Positions 2,599 through 47,553 of a stretch of DNA of 64,000 nt are shown here, piece by piece (position 1 is the stretch's first letter; each line of letters opens with the position of its first letter). The notes under the pieces are model-generated. The model was not told the origin of the DNA. It saw only the letters and a program-made list of their open reading frames with translations, and searched no databases. The position numbers were made by a program, and so were the translations under genes. The DNA is from Methylopila jiangsuensis (GTDB lineage Bacteria > Pseudomonadota > Alphaproteobacteria > Rhizobiales > Methylopilaceae), in contig NZ_BSFK01000016.1 in assembly GCF_027922305.1 (NCBI RefSeq), forward strand, positions 1 to 64,000, read 5' to 3'.

Positions 2599-4275
2599 AT
2601 GACCGACCTTCGCCCGCGCTCCGGCGCCGAAATCCTCGTGGACGCGCTCGTGGCGAACGGGCTGACCACCGGCTTCGGCGTGCCGGGCGAAAGCTATCTC
2701 GCCGTGCTGGAGGCCATGCGGGCGGCGGGAGGCGGGTTCGACTTCGTCACCTGCCGGCAGGAGGGCGGCGCCGCGATGATGGCCGACGCCTGGGGCCGGC
2801 TTTCGGGCCGTCCGGGCCTGTGCTTCGTCACCCGCGGCCCCGGCGCGACCAACGCCATGAGCGGACTGCATGTGGCGCGGCAGGATTCGAACCCGCTGCT
2901 GCTGTTCGTGGGCCAGGTGGCGCGCGGCGTCCGGGGGCGTGAAGCGTTTCAGGAGCTGGACCTCCGCGCGGTGTTCGGCTCCATCGCCAAATGGGTGGTG
3001 GAGATCGACGACGCGGCGCGCATCCCCGAGCTGATCGCGCGGGCGATCCGGACGGCGACGCAAGGGGCGCCCGGCCCGGTGGTGATCGGCCTGCCCGAGG
3101 ACATGCTGGCGGATCAGGCCTCCGTCGCGGACGCCCCCGCCGTCGCGCCGGCGGAAAGCTGGTCCGGCCTCGCCGACATGGCCGAGCTCCAGAAGCGGCT
3201 GTGGGCGGCGAAGCGGCCGATCGCGGTCGTGGGCGGCGGGCGCTGGTCGGCGCGCGCGGTCCAGAGCCTCGCCCGATTCGCGGACCGGTTCCGGCTTCCG
3301 GTCGCCACCACCTTCCGCCGGCAGATGCTGTTTCCGGCCGACCACCCGTGCGCCGCGGGCGACCTCGGCATCGCGCCCAACCCGAAGCTCGCGACGCGCA
3401 TCCGCAATGCCGACCTCGTGCTGCTGATCGGCGACCGGCTGAGCGAGGTTCCGTCCCAGGGCTACGAGCTGCTCGGCGTCCCCTCCCCCCGGCAGACGCT
3501 GATCCATGTGCATCCCGATCCGCAGGAGATCGGCCGGGTCTACCAGCCGGCGCTCGGGATCGTGGCGTCGCCCACCGCCTTCGCCGCCACGCTCGAAGGC
3601 GTGCAGCCGCCGAACGCCCTGCCCTGGGAGGCGGAGACGGACGCGGCGCACGCGGATTACCTCGCCTGGTCGGAGACCGTCCCCCCGCATCCGGGCCCGG
3701 TCCAGATGGCCGAGGTGACGGCTGCGCTGCGCGCGCTGCCGCCCGAGGCGGTGATCTGCAACGGCGCGGGCAACTACTGCGGCTGGCTGCACCGCTTCCA
3801 CCGCTTCACCCGCTACGGAAGCCAGGCGGCGCCCGCCTCCGGCTCCATGGGCTACGGTCTGCCGGCGGCGATCGCGGCCAAGCGGCTCGATCCGGCGCGC
3901 GAGGTGGTGGCGCTCGCCGGCGACGGCTGCTTCCTGATGACGGGGCAGGAGCTCGCCACCGCGGTCCAGCACGATCTCGCGGTGGTGACGATCGTGATCG
4001 ACAACGGCCAGTACGGCACCATCCGCATGCATCAGGAGCGGACCTATCCCGGCCGCCCCTTCGGCACGGCGCTGGCGAATCCGGATTTCGCGGCGCTGGC
4101 GCGGGCCTATGGCGCGGAGGGATTCTCGGTCACGGAGGCCGGCGCGTTCGCCACCGCCTTCGCCGCGGCGCGGGCCTCGGGGCGCCCGGCGCTGATCCAT
4201 GTGGCGCTCGATCCCGAAGCGCTGAGTCCGACCGCGACCGTCGCCGGGCTGAGGGCGCAAGCCGCGCGCGGCTGA
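2599..4275 (+). CDS. Thiamine-diphosphate-dependent enzyme, acetolactate synthase large-subunit-like
   Basis: This 558-residue protein has the three-domain layout of the ThDP decarboxylase/synthase family: N-terminal pyrimidine-binding domain with the catalytic Glu (E55 in CRQEGG), central domain, and C-terminal ThDP domain with GDG (441-443) and the partner Asn N469. E55 argues against glyoxylate carboligase, which lacks it. No ilvH small subunit follows, so true acetohydroxyacid synthase activity is unlikely and the substrate is unknown. I chose the ATG at 2599 (MTDLRPRSG) over one at 2539, because the upstream ATG lies inside the palindromic repeat and would add 20 residues encoded by it. 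cobF follows 67 bases on. Confidence 0.85.
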   Translation: MTDLRPRSGAEILVDALVANGLTTGFGVPGESYLAVLEAMRAAGGGFDFVTCRQEGGAAMMADAWGRLSGRPGLCFVTRGPGATNAMSGLHVARQDSNPLLLFVGQVARGVRGREAFQELDLRAVFGSIAKWVVEIDDAARIPELIARAIRTATQGAPGPVVIGLPEDMLADQASVADAPAVAPAESWSGLADMAELQKRLWAAKRPIAVVGGGRWSARAVQSLARFADRFRLPVATTFRRQMLFPADHPCAAGDLGIAPNPKLATRIRNADLVLLIGDRLSEVPSQGYELLGVPSPRQTLIHVHPDPQEIGRVYQPALGIVASPTAFAATLEGVQPPNALPWEAETDAAHADYLAWSETVPPHPGPVQMAEVTAALRALPPEAVICNGAGNYCGWLHRFHRFTRYGSQAAPASGSMGYGLPAAIAAKRLDPAREVVALAGDGCFLMTGQELATAVQHDLAVVTIVIDNGQYGTIRMHQERTYPGRPFGTALANPDFAALARAYGAEGFSVTEAGAFATAFAAARASGRPALIHVALDPEALSPTATVAGLRAQAARG

Positions 4276-12408: not shown

Positions 12409-13140
12409 TCACCCCTGCGGGAACTCGATCTTGGTCGAGCTCGAGGTGTCGCCCTTGGGCCGGTCCTCGGTCAGGGGCGTCCCGTTGACGAGGTAGTAGA
12501 TCGTCTCCGCGATGTTGGTGGCGTGGTCGCCGATGCGCTCCACGTTCTTGGCGCAGAACAGGAGATGCGCGCAGAAGCCGATGTTGCGCGGATCCTCCAT
12601 CATGTAGGTCAGCAGCTCGCGGAACAGCGAGGTGTAGAGCTGGTCGATCTCGCCGTCCCGCTTCCACACCTCGAGCGCCCGGGCCTCGTCGCGCTGGGTG
12701 TAGGCGTCGAGCACCTCCTTCAGCTGCGCCAGCGTTAGGTTGGCGATGTGCGCCACGCCGTGGGCGAGCTTGGGCGGCTGGAACTGGCCGTCGAGCGCGA
12801 TCACGCGCTTGGCGATGTTCTTGGCGAGGTCGCCGATGCGCTCCAGGTCGTTGGCGATGCGCAGCGACGCCACCACCTCTCGCAGGTCGATGGCGACCGG
12901 CGCGCGCTTGGCGATGGTGAGGATGGCGCGCTCCTCGATCTCCTGCTGCAGGCGGTCGATGGAGCGGTCCCAGTCGATCACCCGCCGGGCGAGCGGGCTG
13001 TCGCGGGTGAGCAGCGCGTCGACGGATTCGGCGACGAGCTTCTCGGCCAGGCCGCCCATCTCGGCGAGCTTGTCGCCGAGCTCCTTCAGGTCGGCGTCGA
13101 AGGCGCTGACGATGTGGTCGGGCATGGTGGTGGTGGTCAT
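12409..13140 (-). CDS. phoU: Phosphate transport regulator PhoU
   Basis: The 243-residue all-helical protein has two PhoU repeats and the metal-binding-type motif regions, including ANDLERIGDLAKNIAKR and KNVERIGDHATNIAE, one per repeat. PhoU couples the Pst transporter to PhoR and damps signalling in phosphate excess. It lies between pstB and phoB with short gaps (25 and 4 bases), consistent with one transcript. Confidence 0.96.
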   Translation of the reverse strand: MTTTTMPDHIVSAFDADLKELGDKLAEMGGLAEKLVAESVDALLTRDSPLARRVIDWDRSIDRLQQEIEERAILTIAKRAPVAIDLREVVASLRIANDLERIGDLAKNIAKRVIALDGQFQPPKLAHGVAHIANLTLAQLKEVLDAYTQRDEARALEVWKRDGEIDQLYTSLFRELLTYMMEDPRNIGFCAHLLFCAKNVERIGDHATNIAETIYYLVNGTPLTEDRPKGDTSSSTKIEFPQG

Positions 13141-13165
13141 GTGGGTGTCTCCCTCCCCGTCCCGG

Positions 13166-13984
13166 TCAGCCGAAGCGGCCCGTGATGTAGTCCTGGGTGC
13201 GGCGGTCGTTCGGGCTGGTGAAGATCTGCTCGGTCGGGCCGGTCTCGACGATGACGCCGAGATGGAAGAACGCCGTGCGCTGGGACACGCGCGCCGCCTG
13301 CTGCATGGAGTGCGTCACGATCACGATCGTGAAGTTCTGGCGCAGTTCGTCGATCAGCTCCTCGATCTTGGCGGTCGCGATGGGGTCGAGCGCCGAGCAG
13401 GGCTCGTCCATCAGGATCACCTCGGGGCTCACCGCGATGGCGCGGGCGATGCAGAGGCGCTGCTGCTGGCCGCCGGAGAGGCCGGTGCCGCCGTCGTTGA
13501 GGCGGTCCTTCACCTCGTTCCAGAGGCTCGCCTTGCGCAGGCTGTCCTCGACGATCTCGTCCATCTCCGCCTTGGAGCGGGCCAGGCCGTGGATGCGCGG
13601 GCCGTAGGCCACGTTCTCGTAGATCGATTTCGGGAACGGGTTCGGCTTCTGGAACACCATGCCGACGCGGGCGCGCAGCTGCACCACGTCCAGCGAGGGA
13701 TCGTAGATGTCGTAGTCGTCGATGGTGATCTTGCCGGTGACCCGGCAGATGGAGATCGTGTCGTTCATGCGGTTGATGCAGCGCAGGAACGTGGACTTGC
13801 CGCAGCCGGACGGGCCGATGAAGGCCGTGACCGAACGCTCGGCCATGTCGATGGAGACGTCCTTCAGGGCGTGCTTCTCGCCGTAATAGACGTTCACGTT
13901 GCGGGCGACGATCTTCGGATCGCCGCCGAGATCGGCGGAGGCGGCGCCCTGGGTCTGGGTCTGGGCGTTCACGTTGGCGTCCAT
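13166..13984 (-). CDS. pstB: Phosphate ABC transporter ATP-binding protein PstB
   Basis: 272 residues with Walker [10 protein letters not shown] (57-65), Q-loop, signature LSGGQQQR, Walker B VILMDEP and switch His in VTHSMQQ. It powers high-affinity phosphate import with PstSCA. I chose the ATG at 13984 (MDANVN) because GAAGGAG precedes it at good distance; a GTG/ATG-type start at 14014 would overlap pstA. The N-terminal 25 residues are low-complexity and Gln/Ala-rich. Confidence 0.96.
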
Positions 13985-40529: not shown

Positions 40530-41645
40530 TCAGGCCGGGCGGCGGCGCACGCTTCGCGCCGCGTCGCCCCAGGCGATGATGCGGTCGCGGGCGGGCTTCT
40601 CGATCACGTAATGGGCGATGGCGGCCGCGATCACGGCGGCTGCGAGCCCCGCAAGGCCCACCATCATCAGCCCCAGGGGCGAGGTCAGGCCGAGCAGCTT
40701 GCCGGCGACGCCGAAGGTCACCATCAGCACCGGCGCGTGGACGATGTAGAGCGCGTAGGAGATTTCGCCGAACCAGGTCAGCGGCCGGGCCCTCAGCAGG
40801 CCGGGCTCGGGCGCGACGGCCCGCAGCGCCAGCAGCAGCACCAGCGCCCCCACCAGCGGCCACAGCGCCGCGCCGCCGGCGCCGAAGGCGAGCAGCGCGC
40901 CGGCGGCGCCCAGCGTCAGCCCGAACAGGCCGGCGAGCGTCAGCGGCCCCGGCCGCTTCGTCAGGACGCCGAAGATCTCCCGCAGCACGACGCCGAGGAA
41001 GAAGGACGGCACGATGCGCAGCGCGCCGCCGTCGTGCATCAGGGTCATCAGGTCCCGGCCGAGCCAGAGCTTGGCGATCGCCCAGCACAGGGCGAACAGC
41101 GCGGCCGCGGCGGCGAGCTTCGCGAGCGGCGAGCGCAGCCGGGAGGACACCATCAGATAGAGCGGGAAGGTGAGATAGGCGGTCCATTCCGCGCCCACCG
41201 ACCAGGACGGCTGGTTCCAGGCGAGCTCCGGCGTGATCCCGGTGGCGTGCAGCATGGCCGCATGGGCTGCGAAGGACGAGGCGGTGGGCGACCACGGCGG
41301 CGTGAGCCCCACCGCCCGGCCGCCGAACACGATGGCCGCCACCGCGATGAGGCCCGCCATGTGCAGCGGCCAGATGCGGGCGAAGCGGCGGATCAGGAAG
41401 CGGAGGTGGTCGTAAGTCCCGTTCCGCCACGGCCCCTCATAGACATGGGCCAGCACGAAGCCGCTGAGCACGAAGAAGAAATCCACCGCGAGCAGGCCCA
41501 GCACGTCGAGCGGGACGCGGCTGGAGACGACCCCTTGCGCATAGGCGTCGATGTGGAAGATCACCACCATCAGCGCCGCGAAGCCGCGGGCGGCGGTGAG
41601 CTCGAGCAGTTCGCTCCGCGATGCGTCCGGCGCCAGTATCGTCAC
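40530..41645 (-). CDS. Acyltransferase 3 family membrane protein
   Basis: 371 residues with about ten membrane helices and Acyltransferase_3 motifs: FHIDAY with the catalytic-type His, RRFARIWPLH and the ending YVIEKPARD. Family members O-acylate sugars of exopolysaccharides, LPS or Nod factors. No polysaccharide genes adjoin, so the acceptor is unknown. I chose the GTG at 41645 because it gives the usual short N-terminus; ATGs at 41708 and 41765 would add charged residues. Confidence 0.88.
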   Translation of the reverse strand: MTILAPDASRSELLELTAARGFAALMVVIFHIDAYAQGVVSSRVPLDVLGLLAVDFFFVLSGFVLAHVYEGPWRNGTYDHLRFLIRRFARIWPLHMAGLIAVAAIVFGGRAVGLTPPWSPTASSFAAHAAMLHATGITPELAWNQPSWSVGAEWTAYLTFPLYLMVSSRLRSPLAKLAAAAALFALCWAIAKLWLGRDLMTLMHDGGALRIVPSFFLGVVLREIFGVLTKRPGPLTLAGLFGLTLGAAGALLAFGAGGAALWPLVGALVLLLALRAVAPEPGLLRARPLTWFGEISYALYIVHAPVLMVTFGVAGKLLGLTSPLGLMMVGLAGLAAAVIAAAIAHYVIEKPARDRIIAWGDAARSVRRRPA

Positions 41646-41784
41646 GGGGAAATCTTTGCGTCGCGGCCTGAGGACAGTTCCCCAGCATGACGCGGCGCGA
41701 GCGAACATTCGGTTAAGCGCCACGCTCGACGAAACCGGCGCCATGCGCGATGAAGACCCGCTCACTTGTCACGAGACCGTGTTC

Positions 41785-43014
41785 ATGCCCCCCGCCCCCG
41801 CCTCCCCCATCGCCTTCCGCCACCGCAACTTCGTGCTGTTCTGGACGGCGCGGCTCTGCGCCACCTTCGCGGTGCAGGTGGTGTCGGTGGCGGTCGGCTG
41901 GCAGGTCTACGACCTCACCCGCGACCCGTTCGACCTCGGTCTGGTGGGCCTCGTCCAGTTCGCGCCGGCCTTCGCGCTGGTGCTGGTCACCGGCCCGGCC
42001 GCCGACCGGTTCCCGCGCCGGATCATCATGGGCCTGTGCGTGGCGCTGGAGGCGGTCGGCGCGCTGGCGCTGGTGGGGCTGACGCTCGTCGGCAACGTCG
42101 ACACCGGGCCGATCTTCGCGGCGCTGTTCGCCTTCGGCGTGGCGCGGGCCTTCTTCGGCCCCGCCAGCGCCGCGCTGATCCCGAGCCTCGTGCCGAAGGA
42201 GGCGCTGGCCAACGCCATCACCTGGGCGTCGTCGTCCTGGCAGTTCGCCAGCATCGTCGGCCCGGTGGCCGGCGGCCTGCTCTACGGCTTCAGCCCCCAG
42301 GCGGCCTATATGGGCGCCGCGGTCCTGCTCGGCGTCGGCCTCGGCGCGATCGCGCTGCTCAGGGTGGACCAGCCCCGCCGGACGCTGGATTCCAGCTGGC
42401 GCACGCTGGTGGCGGGCTTCGCTTATGTGGCGAAGGAGAAGATCGTTCTCGGCGCGATCTCGCTCGACCTGTTCGCGGTGCTGCTGGGCGGCGCGGTCGC
42501 CCTGATGCCCGCTGTGGCCCGCGACGTGCTCGACGTCGGACCCTGGGGCCTCGGCCTGCTGCGGGCCGCGCCCGGCGTTGGCGCCATCGCCATGGCGGTG
42601 CTGCTGTCCGTCGCGCCGATCCGCGACCATGCGGGACGGATCATGTTCGCCTGCGTCGGCCTGTTCGGGCTCGCCACCGCCGTGTTCGGCCTGTCGGAGA
42701 CCGTGTGGCTGTCGGTGGCGGCGCTTGGCGTGATGGGCGCCGCCGACATGGTGAGCGTCACCATCCGCGAGACGCTGCTCCAGCTCTGGACGCCGGACGA
42801 GGTGCGCGGCCGGGTCAACGCCGTGAACATGCTGTTCATCGGCGCCTCCAACGAGCTCGGCGAATTCCGCGCCGGGGCCATGGCCTCCATCATCGGCGTC
42901 ATGCCCGCCATCGTGGCGGGCGGCGTCGGGGCCATGGCGGTGGCCGGCCTGTGGGCGTGGTGGTTTCCGGGCCTCCGAACCGCCCGCTCGCTGGAGCGGC
43001 GCGAAGACGGCTGA
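41785..43014 (+). CDS. MFS exporter, EntS-like
   Basis: About 409 residues with twelve predicted helices; FRHRNFVLFWTARLCATFA at the start and TGPAADRFPRR as the MFS loop motif fit the EntS/MFS_3 group of siderophore and drug exporters. Substrate unknown. Starts at 41785 (MPPAPAS) or 41743 are both possible with weak ribosome sites. It is divergent from the acyltransferase and convergent with rho, sharing a two-way terminator. Confidence 0.87.
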   Translation: MPPAPASPIAFRHRNFVLFWTARLCATFAVQVVSVAVGWQVYDLTRDPFDLGLVGLVQFAPAFALVLVTGPAADRFPRRIIMGLCVALEAVGALALVGLTLVGNVDTGPIFAALFAFGVARAFFGPASAALIPSLVPKEALANAITWASSSWQFASIVGPVAGGLLYGFSPQAAYMGAAVLLGVGLGAIALLRVDQPRRTLDSSWRTLVAGFAYVAKEKIVLGAISLDLFAVLLGGAVALMPAVARDVLDVGPWGLGLLRAAPGVGAIAMAVLLSVAPIRDHAGRIMFACVGLFGLATAVFGLSETVWLSVAALGVMGAADMVSVTIRETLLQLWTPDEVRGRVNAVNMLFIGASNELGEFRAGAMASIIGVMPAIVAGGVGAMAVAGLWAWWFPGLRTARSLERREDG

Positions 43015-45266: not shown

Positions 45267-46334
45267 TTAACCGGTCCGCCGCGCCCGCGCCACCAGCTGG
45301 GCCACATGCTCCGGGGGCGTGTGCTGCCGCACCCCGTGGCCGAGGTTGAGGATGAACGGGCCGGAGCCAAGGTCCCGGAGGCAGGCGTCCACGGCCGCGT
45401 CGAGCGCCGGGCCGCCGGCCATCAGCGCCAGCGGGTCCACGTTACCCTGCAGCGCCGCGCCCGCAGGGGCCGCGGCGCGGGCGGCCACCCGGTCCTCGGC
45501 GGTGGCGAGGCCGAAACCGTTCGCCGGCACCGCATGGGCGAAGGCGCCGAACTTGGCGCCGGCGCCGCGGGCGAAGGCGATGATCGGCGCGCCCGGAACC
45601 CTGGCCCGCACCCGCTCGCAGATCGCCGCGATCGGCTTCGTCGACCAGCGCTCGAATTCGGCCGGGGGCAGGTCGCCGCTCCAGCTGTCGAAGATCTGCA
45701 CCGCCTGCGCGCCCGCCTGAAGCTGCGCCACCAGATGGGCGGCGGAGGCTTCCACCAGCCGGTCGATCAGAACCTGGAAGGTCTCCGGCTCGCCATAGGC
45801 CAGCAGCCGCGCCGGCGCCTGCTCGTCGCCGCCCCGTCCGGCCACCATATAGGTCGCCACGGTATAGGGAGCCCCGCAGAAGCCGATCAGCGCGGTCTCG
45901 GGCGACAGCGCCGCCCGCGCCCGCGCCACGGTCTCGTAGACCGGCGACAGGAAGCCCAGGTCGATCTCGGGCTTCAGGCGGTCGAACTGGGCGAGCGTCG
46001 TCACCGGATCGAGGCGCGGGCCCTCGCCCTCCACGAAGCGCACGTCCTGTCCGAGCGCGTGCGGCACCACCAGGATGTCGGAGAACAGGATCGCCGCATC
46101 GAAGCCGTAGCGCCGGATCGGCTGCAGCGTCACCTCGGTGGCGAACTCCGGCGTGTAGCAGAGGTCGAGGAAGCTGCCGGCGCGGGCGCGCAGCTCGCGG
46201 TATTCGGGCAGATAGCGTCCCGCCTGCCGCATGAGCCAGATGGGCGGCGTCGGCAGCGTCTCGCCGGCGAGCGCCCTCAGGAACGGCGCCGTGTCGCCCT
46301 GATCCGGACCTGCCGTCCCCTGCTGGCTCACCAC
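45267..46334 (-). CDS. hemE: Uroporphyrinogen decarboxylase
   Basis: 355 residues with PIWLMRQAGRYLPEYR (substrate Args), the second motif IGFCGAPYTVATYM and the C-terminal GNVDP and LNLGHGV. It decarboxylates uroporphyrinogen III to coproporphyrinogen III. Two adjacent GTG codons (46334 and 46331) follow GAAGGAG; the first gives five and the second eight bases of spacing. Its start borders the probable origin. Confidence 0.97.
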   Translation of the reverse strand: MVSQQGTAGPDQGDTAPFLRALAGETLPTPPIWLMRQAGRYLPEYRELRARAGSFLDLCYTPEFATEVTLQPIRRYGFDAAILFSDILVVPHALGQDVRFVEGEGPRLDPVTTLAQFDRLKPEIDLGFLSPVYETVARARAALSPETALIGFCGAPYTVATYMVAGRGGDEQAPARLLAYGEPETFQVLIDRLVEASAAHLVAQLQAGAQAVQIFDSWSGDLPPAEFERWSTKPIAAICERVRARVPGAPIIAFARGAGAKFGAFAHAVPANGFGLATAEDRVAARAAAPAGAALQGNVDPLALMAGGPALDAAVDACLRDLGSGPFILNLGHGVRQHTPPEHVAQLVARARRTG

Positions 46335-46692
46335 GAAGGCTCCTTCTCTAAGAATCCTGAATCGACTCTTCTGCTTCTTTTTCTAGGGGGGCCGATTACA
46401 TCCATTCCAAGGGGTCCACAAGGCGTCCACAGAACATGCATCGTTAACCATGCGTTAACGCCTGTGGCGGCGCTTCGAAGCTGAAGGAGTCGAGGGGTTG
46501 TCCGCTCATTCCGTCCACCGGCGCCGGAATCCTGTCCCGGCGCGGATCGATGTTGATGAAAATCGCCCCTTCGGCCACTGTCCGCCCCGAAGCGGCGTTC
46601 GGGCGTTCCGTCGTCCACAGCCGTCCACCGCGGGATTCACGGCCTGTCCCGCGCCTCGCCCGCCTTTCCCCGTCCGGTCCCGCTGAACCGCC
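46335..46692. other. Probable chromosomal replication origin (oriC)
   Basis: This 358-base gap lies between divergent hemE and ppsR (RP001/DUF299), the place of the Caulobacter origin. It contains a TTAA-N7-TTAA CtrA-type site (46444-46458), five GANTC sites (46352, 46359, 46364, 46527, 46634) and five same-strand DnaA-box-like 9-mers with the TCCAC core (46412 GGGTCCACA, 46423 GCGTCCACA, 46511 CCGTCCACC, 46611 TCGTCCACA, 46621 CCGTCCACC), the first two 11 and the last two 10 bases apart. A pyrimidine-rich T-tract (46365-46385) is the nearest to an easily melted stretch. Flanking genes run away from it. All calls by eye. Confidence 0.78.
46444..46458. promoter_or_regulatory. CtrA-type binding site in the origin
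   Basis: TTAACCATGCGTTAA is an exact match to TTAA-N7-TTAA, and TTAACCAT is the favoured left half in Caulobacter. CtrA blocks initiation there. It lies between the first DnaA-box-like pair and the second group. Confidence 0.75.
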
Positions 46693-47553
46693 ATGCCCGT
46701 TCGCGCCTTCCATTTCCATCTGGTGTCCGACTCCACCGGCGAAACGCTGGTGGCGGTGGCCCGCGCCGCGGTGTCCCAATACGAGGACGTCGCCGGCGTC
46801 GAGCATGTCTATCCGCTGGTGCGCTCGGCCCGGCAGCTCGACCGGGTGCTGGGCGAGATCGCCGACGATCCGGGCATCGTGCTCTACACGCTGGTGGAGG
46901 AGGAGCTGATCGAGCGGCTGGAGACCCGCTGCCGGGCGCTCGGCTGCCCCTGCCTGCATGTGCTGGAGCCGGTGTTCGCGCTGCTGCGCTCCTATCTCGG
47001 GGCCGAGAAGACCAAGCTGCCGGGCGCCCAGCACGCCCTCAACGCCGACTATTTCAAGCGCATCGACGCGCTGAACTTCACCATGGCCCATGACGACGGC
47101 CAGTTCACCGAGGGCATGGCCGACGCGGACGTGATCCTGCTCGGCGTCAGCCGCACCTCCAAGACGCCGACCTCGATCTACCTGGCCAACCGGGGCGTGA
47201 AGACCGCGAACATCCCGCTCATCCCCGATCTGCCGCCGCCGCACGGGCTGGAGAAGCTGCGCAAGCCGCTGATCGTGGGCCTGATCGCCACGCCCGAGCG
47301 GATCGTCGCCATCCGCCACAACCGCATCCTCGGGCTCGAGGGCGGCATGGAGGGACGGCTGCAGGACGACGCCTATGTGGACCCGGAGGCGGTGGCGGCC
47401 GAGATTTCCGCCTCCCGCCGCTTCTGCGCCCGCTACGGCTGGCAGACCATCGACGTCACCCGCCGCTCCATCGAGGAGACGGCCGCCGCCGTGCTCTCCA
47501 TGCTGAGCGAGCACCGCGCCAAACGCTTCGCCGAACACATCGCCACCACATGA
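46693..47553 (+). CDS. ppsR: Pyruvate, phosphate dikinase/PEP synthase regulatory protein (DUF299)
   Basis: 286 residues with [13 protein letters not shown] at the start and the P-loop GVSRTSKT (151-158) of the bifunctional kinase/phosphorylase family. The enzyme inactivates PEP synthase or PPDK by ADP-dependent phosphorylation and reverses this with phosphate. It is the first gene right of the origin and its stop overlaps maf (ATGA), starting a tightly packed group to dnaQ. Confidence 0.95.

Follow-up and report, generated by a model that had tools for sequence, protein, structure and literature searches.

A conserved intergenic gap between hemE and ppsR as the probable chromosomal replication origin of Methylopila jiangsuensis

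The window analyzed here, 64 kb of DNA, is the beginning of a 985,174-bp contig (C16) in the Methylopila jiangsuensis genome (G000; 3,715,153 bp in 18 contigs). It contains the divergently oriented genes hemE and ppsR, which flank an intergenic gap at positions 46335–46692 whose AT content is higher than the average of the window. The genes and the motifs in the gap are listed below by their positions in the window. Genus alignment here means the alignment of this gap with those of 12 other members of the genus (13 gaps).

45267–46334, minus strand: hemE (TIGR01464, E 6.3e-111)
46335–46692: intergenic gap, putative oriC, 358 bp, GC 0.623 compared to 0.707 for the 64-kb window
46352–46368: cluster of three GANTC sites (46352, 46359, 46364), on the side of the trio run that faces hemE
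46368–46385, minus strand: DnaA-trio run TAG-AAA-AAG-AAG-CAG-AAG, read towards hemE, likely unwinding element
46386–46389: G-run spacer between the trio run and the adjacent box-like 9-mer
46390–46398, minus strand: degenerate DnaA-box-like 9-mer TAATCGGCC beside the trio run, 4 mismatches to TTATCCACA
46412–46420, plus strand: DnaA-box-like GGGTCCACA, pair 1, TCCAC core
46423–46431, plus strand: DnaA-box-like GCGTCCACA, pair 1, 11 bp from the first box of the pair
46444–46458: CtrA-type site TTAACCATGCGTTAA, exact TTAA-N7-TTAA
46511–46519, plus strand: isolated box-like CCGTCCACC, without conservation in the genus
46551–46559, minus strand: conserved TGTTGATGA (minus strand TCATCAACA, 2 mismatches to TTATCCACA)
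46611–46619, plus strand: DnaA-box-like TCGTCCACA, pair 2, TCCAC core
46621–46629, plus strand: DnaA-box-like CCGTCCACC, pair 2, 10 bp from the first box of the pair
46693–47553, plus strand: ppsR (NF003742, E 5e-97)

A sequence-only reading of this DNA had placed the gap between the same two genes that flank the Caulobacter origin, and the profile matches to hemE and ppsR bear this out; ppsR is the gene that we take to be the COG1806/DUF299 gene of the papers on the Caulobacter origin. It had also described the genes as pointing away from the gap for several kb on each side. This holds to the right, where ppsR, maf, aroE, dnaQ, a Tim44-domain gene and an MltA gene read away up to 53.6 kb, but to the left the outward run of hemE, hemJ and rho spans 3.2 kb only. 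It is ended by an MFS transporter gene beyond rho (41551–43014, plus strand), which reads towards the gap.

The position of the gap is conserved. Out of 29 loci of relatives, hemE adjoins ppsR in 27, twelve of them within the genus; the two misses are a locus with 393 bp upstream (L154) and a locus without a hemE match (L147). The same adjacency is found in 77 out of 80 named loci, that is, those with a related ppsR, mostly from Hyphomicrobiales and overlapping with the previous set, the three misses having 80 bp (L257), about 1.5 kb (L251) and 10 kb (L235) upstream. Of 61 genomes searched for ppsR itself, 53 gave a match.

On its plus strand the gap has five TCCAC (46415, 46426, 46514, 46614 and 46624), on its minus strand none, and the two pairs with 10–11 nt spacing reported by the sequence-only reading are confirmed. 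Neither five TCCAC on one strand nor two such pairs were seen in dinucleotide shuffles of the gap (0/2000 in both cases). Among 4356 half-overlapping 358-bp windows from the first 780 kb of the contig, gap region included, as many TCCAC per strand are observed in three, and two pairs, in just one. The pattern GTCCACAN{3,4}GTCCAC has three occurrences in the 3.7-Mb genome, two of them within the gap and the third in contig C7, while the relatives G006 and G012 have one occurrence each, both in the hemE–ppsR gap. No second phased GTCCACA pair was found elsewhere on the gap's own contig. The gap has no 9-mer within one mismatch of TTATCCACA, and a cluster of TTATCCACA-type boxes was rejected as its mark, the score being equalled by 193 of 603 site-anchored windows in the first 780 kb, where exact TTATCCACA is absent and one-mismatch sites number 19. 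It is the TCCAC pairs, not TTATCCACA-type clusters, that make the gap outstanding, and the DnaA-box cluster characteristic of a hemE/COG1806-type oriC would be represented here by these putative TCCAC boxes.

Outside the gap, the genome has a single phased GTCCACA pair (G000:C7:253682). It falls near the 3' end of a gene for a replication initiator (PF10134, E 4.5e-91), behind the domain, with a ParA-type ATPase gene adjoining. The open reading frames of the initiator and the ATPase lie on the minus strand at L115:13364–14524 and 12729–13367, respectively, and the pair at L115:13682; the C7 module is either plasmid-like and chromosomal, or an additional replicon.

The CtrA-type site is likewise present as described earlier. 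There is one exact TTAA-N7-TTAA in the gap, and one is found in 1 of 2000 shuffles, in 16 of the 4356 windows from the first 780 kb and in 10 of the 13 genus gaps; this single predicted site would provide the CtrA site of a hemE/COG1806-type oriC. GANTC sites, of which five had been counted, are indeed there, but their number is six: in addition to the cluster of three near hemE, they are observed at 46487, 46527 and 46634. Six sites are reached by 15 of 2000 shuffles and by one of the 4356 windows, and the count per gap in the genus ranges from 1 to 6. Exact matching, the only kind tried, gave no strict IHF consensus (WATCAN4TTR or WATCAN5WTR) in the gap, the IHF site being an accompanying, not a defining, feature of the hemE/COG1806-type oriC.

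The genes for CtrA (over the curated cut-off), GcrA and DnaA are present. The C-terminal DNA-binding segment of DnaA, which contains the residues reading the box, gives a close alignment to the solved chain 8btg and retains GGRDHTTV. As this recognition segment is conserved, the suggestion that the GC-shifted boxes reflect a DnaA of relaxed specificity finds no support.

Of all 40-mers in the gap, the least stable one (start 46347) contains the DnaA-trio run, and only 9 of the 63,961 40-mers in the window, itself included, are at least as unstable. The spacer between the run and the adjacent box is exactly 4 bp in 12 of the 13 genus gaps, and the commonest form of the adjacent 9-mer in the genus is TAATCCGCC (9/13), with 3 mismatches to TTATCCACA. 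We surveyed 105 gaps, or 103 once duplicates were removed (13 from the genus and 90 from outside). Runs of at least six units are present on the minus strand in all 13 genus gaps and on the plus strand in none. Outside the genus, at least six units are found in 27 of 90 gaps on the minus strand and in one on the plus strand (shuffled mean 4.8, maximum 9), and at least five units, in 41 and 16 gaps, respectively (shuffled mean 15.7, maximum 25). Thirty-eight of these 41 minus-strand runs start at most 106 bp from the hemE-side end of the segment. The letters of the trios vary between gaps (TAATAACAATAA, TAAGAAGAAGAA, TACAACAACAAC), while their place and the three-base step are constant. The other 49 outside-genus gaps have no run of five, which speaks against universality. 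Of the 38 outside-genus loci whose trio run is near hemE, 15 have a TTATCCACA-type box (up to 2 mismatches) 0–16 bp before the trios, compared to a mean of 4.4 and a maximum of 10 for random places.

DnaA-trios have the general form.A. with the consensus 3'-GAT-5', and their presence beside a DnaA-box is described as an origin-opening signature in a survey of predicted origins of 2070 species (PMC8287927). As that survey covered proteobacterial classes, we do not claim trios in alphaproteobacterial origins as new. The gap resembles the basal unwinding system (BUS: DnaA-box, spacer and DnaA-trios) in having an (.A.) run beside a box-like 9-mer on the same strand, separated by a GC spacer, and its six units compare with the at least three trios of a BUS. 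It differs in the box: the trio-adjacent box has at least 3 mismatches in 12 of the 13 genus gaps, over the limit of 2, at 0–16 bp from the trios, set by the published search program (PMC8287927), and only one of the 13 stays within this limit, the box of the gap itself having 4 mismatches. Because the box exceeds the limit, the gap is called BUS-like and is not assigned to BUS, and the trio run is, judging by its sequence, a probable BUS-like candidate unwinding element.

In the genus alignment 117 of the 358 gap columns are identical in at least 12 of 13 sequences, and these columns are concentrated in the motifs. The conserved blocks are the T-rich run at 46368–46385 with the G-run, ATTACA, pair 1, the CtrA-type site, TGTTGATGA, TCGG-CGA-GT, and pair 2. 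Ten of the 13 genus gaps retain both TCCAC pairs and all 13 retain at least one of them; conservation does not extend to the fifth box (46514). In the region 46551–46585, TGTTGATGA, with all nine columns identical in at least 12 of 13 gaps, is followed by the TCGG-CGA-GT block, also conserved in the genus; TGTTGATGA could be a DnaA box on the reverse strand or a part of a promoter.

The strand polarity of the window's own genome does not mark the gap. A skew minimum at the gap was the proposed check of the sequence-only reading, and a minimum elsewhere was to count against it; formally, the minima are elsewhere, at 82–157 kb. From 46.5 to 82.5 kb, the KOPS word GGGNAGGG is found 0 times on the plus strand and 8 times on the minus strand, with the cumulative minimum at 82,161, and GC skew, taken over the first 780 kb, has its minimum at 156,731. 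We also used a polarity score based on 6-mers trained on contig C5 of the same genome, about half of which was covered; there, skew and k-mers reverse in the terminus sense between stretches 520–540 and 560–580 kb, and GGGCAGGG counts are 67 to 4 in the training stretches either side of the reversal. The score is –20.0 to the left of the gap and sums to –50.7 over 46.5–147.9 kb, being weakly positive over the 46.6–81.8 kb blocks together, negative over 82.8–147.9 kb and clearly positive only beyond 170 kb. The dnaA gene (637 kb) sits in steadily positive k-mer polarity (520–780 kb). As locators, own-genome GC skew was set aside as weak and displaced, and four-fold-site skew per stretch, as noisy.

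When set against G006, the initial 110 kb of the contig form a mosaic: blocks of about 1–23 kb, in both orientations and from both origin sides, correspond to regions that in G006 lie as far as 180 kb from the gap in either direction. Rearrangement close to the putative origin is dense; the block around the gap (43.1–50.3 kb) is intact within this mosaic. The own-genome KOPS and skew minima were thus probably displaced by the rearrangement of the first 110 kb. A low-GC stretch at about 148–166 kb (C16:148000–166000; L032 from 7880, L033 to 6000) begins beside tRNA-Ser and contains genes for an IS1595-type transposase, a TonB receptor and a phosphopantetheinyl transferase; by its composition and content it is probably a genomic island. 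The skew at 156.7 kb is unreliable, since it lies in this low-GC DNA with tRNA-Ser and the transposase, and this, together with the mosaic, weakens the displaced switch as counter-evidence. Two parS sites are located at 101,932 and 103,963, at 55–57 kb from the gap. Exact parS is present in 16 of 18 relatives searched, and its distance to ppsR is 4–9 kb in the five outside-genus relatives having parS and 13–89 kb in the genus, as measured in the eight relatives where a single contig carries both.

The polarity of G006 was analyzed in 400 kb chosen to be centred on its gap (3285.4 kb). The score forms a V with the vertex at 3292 kb (95% interval 3225–3356 kb by residual bootstrap, which also includes the parS sites at 3314–3316 kb), and the GC-skew minimum within these 400 kb is at 3,289,068. 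GGGNAGGG is found 7 times on the plus and 19 times on the minus strand to the left, and 26 and 20 times, respectively, to the right. The switch, located to about ±65 kb, is compatible with the gap. An origin at 56 kb in G006 was considered and dropped: the start of that contig has no significance as a landmark, and the switch is located around 3.29 Mb. In G012, among the matches listed for KOPS followed by CS or W, minus signs prevail from 1.27 to 2.02 Mb and plus signs beyond 2.27 Mb; in between, where the gap lies (2.150 Mb), the signs are mixed.

The Caulobacter crescentus origin, Cori, is described as a region of about 400 bp between hemE and COG1806 with DnaA boxes, TTAA-N7-TTAA sites and an AT-rich part (PMC1914354, PMC8959179), and the gap shares with it the flanking genes, DnaA-type boxes, the CtrA-type site and an AT-rich part. 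Cori has five CtrA sites, whereas the gap has one exact site; moreover, the gap differs from Cori in lacking the strict IHF consensus and in its GC-shifted boxes. For a counterpart of the Caulobacter ncRNA ccnA only Rfam was searched, with nothing at the gathering score: the single match in 46000–47100 (E 0.97) is far below its own. In Hyphomonas neptunium, marker frequency placed the origin close to hemE, while skew and DnaA-site analyses are reported to have given no clear result (PMC6650430); the situation here is similar in the proximity to hemE and in skew being no clear locator in the own genome. However, H. neptunium parAB is about 7 kb from hemE (PMC6650430), much closer than the parS sites here. 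For Methylocystis SC2, the GC skew is likewise described as having no clear inversion, and oriC was predicted by Ori-Finder (PMC3794950).

We conclude that the gap is very probably the chromosomal origin oriC, of the hemE/COG1806 type, in accordance with the sequence-only reading. This is the best explanation because the conserved position, the initiator motifs with the trio run, the near-unique TCCAC pairs and the compatible polarity switch of G006 all agree with it. Chance matches in a GC-rich spacer could be suspected, given the shortness of TCCAC and the departure of the boxes from TTATCCACA, but this explanation is already refuted by the shuffles, none of which reproduced the boxes, and by their conservation in the genus. 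It is improbable, too, that the functional origin is elsewhere near the polarity switch (about 82–160 kb, e.g., near parS at 102–104 kb) and the gap is a former origin. The GGGNAGGG and GC-skew minima and the parS sites would fit such a location, as would a low-GC stretch with four DnaA-box-like sites with 2 mismatches at 156.5–156.8 kb. The latter, however, belongs to the low-GC DNA where skew is unreliable, the 400 kb of G006 searched contain no block matching 109.8–170.0 kb, and the mosaic of both G006 arms in 0–110 kb can by itself scramble polarity, while the hemE–ppsR gap is intact and conserved and its contig has no second phased GTCCACA pair.

Even less probable is that the gap has no origin activity and is a mere promoter region, shared by hemE and ppsR and controlled by DnaA and CtrA. 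Divergent genes do need promoters, and both CtrA and DnaA also regulate promoters in Caulobacter. Still, against this explanation stand the trio run, whose place is kept in many gaps of the order while its letters vary, and the G006 polarity vertex compatible with the gap. The transcription of hemE in Caulobacter is reported to be tied to the origin (PMC8959179), which could suit a promoter, but trios beside a DnaA-box are a signature of origin opening (PMC8287927).

If the gap is the origin, DnaA would bind both pairs of weak TCCAC boxes (46412/46423 and 46611/46621) as well as the degenerate box adjoining the G-run, and the DnaA filament would then extend onto the minus-strand trios (46385–46368). 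The AT-richer DNA next to hemE would open, and the helicase would be loaded there. From its site at 46444–46458, between the box pairs, CtrA would prevent re-initiation, and newly replicated DNA may be marked by GANTC methylation. More tentatively, the origin of the genus might run on weak GC-shifted boxes and a degenerate trio-adjacent box with the DnaA segment unchanged, opening being achieved via the cooperative phased pairs and the trios; this reading is rather doubtful, but, if it is true, initiation would be unusually sensitive to the DnaA level and to CtrA.

The gap provides a well-supported replication start for a genus of high-GC alphaproteobacteria. It has been kept intact while its neighbourhood, the parS block included, was reshuffled, and the run of DnaA-trios at its hemE side adds a conserved candidate unwinding element to the hemE-type origins of the order.
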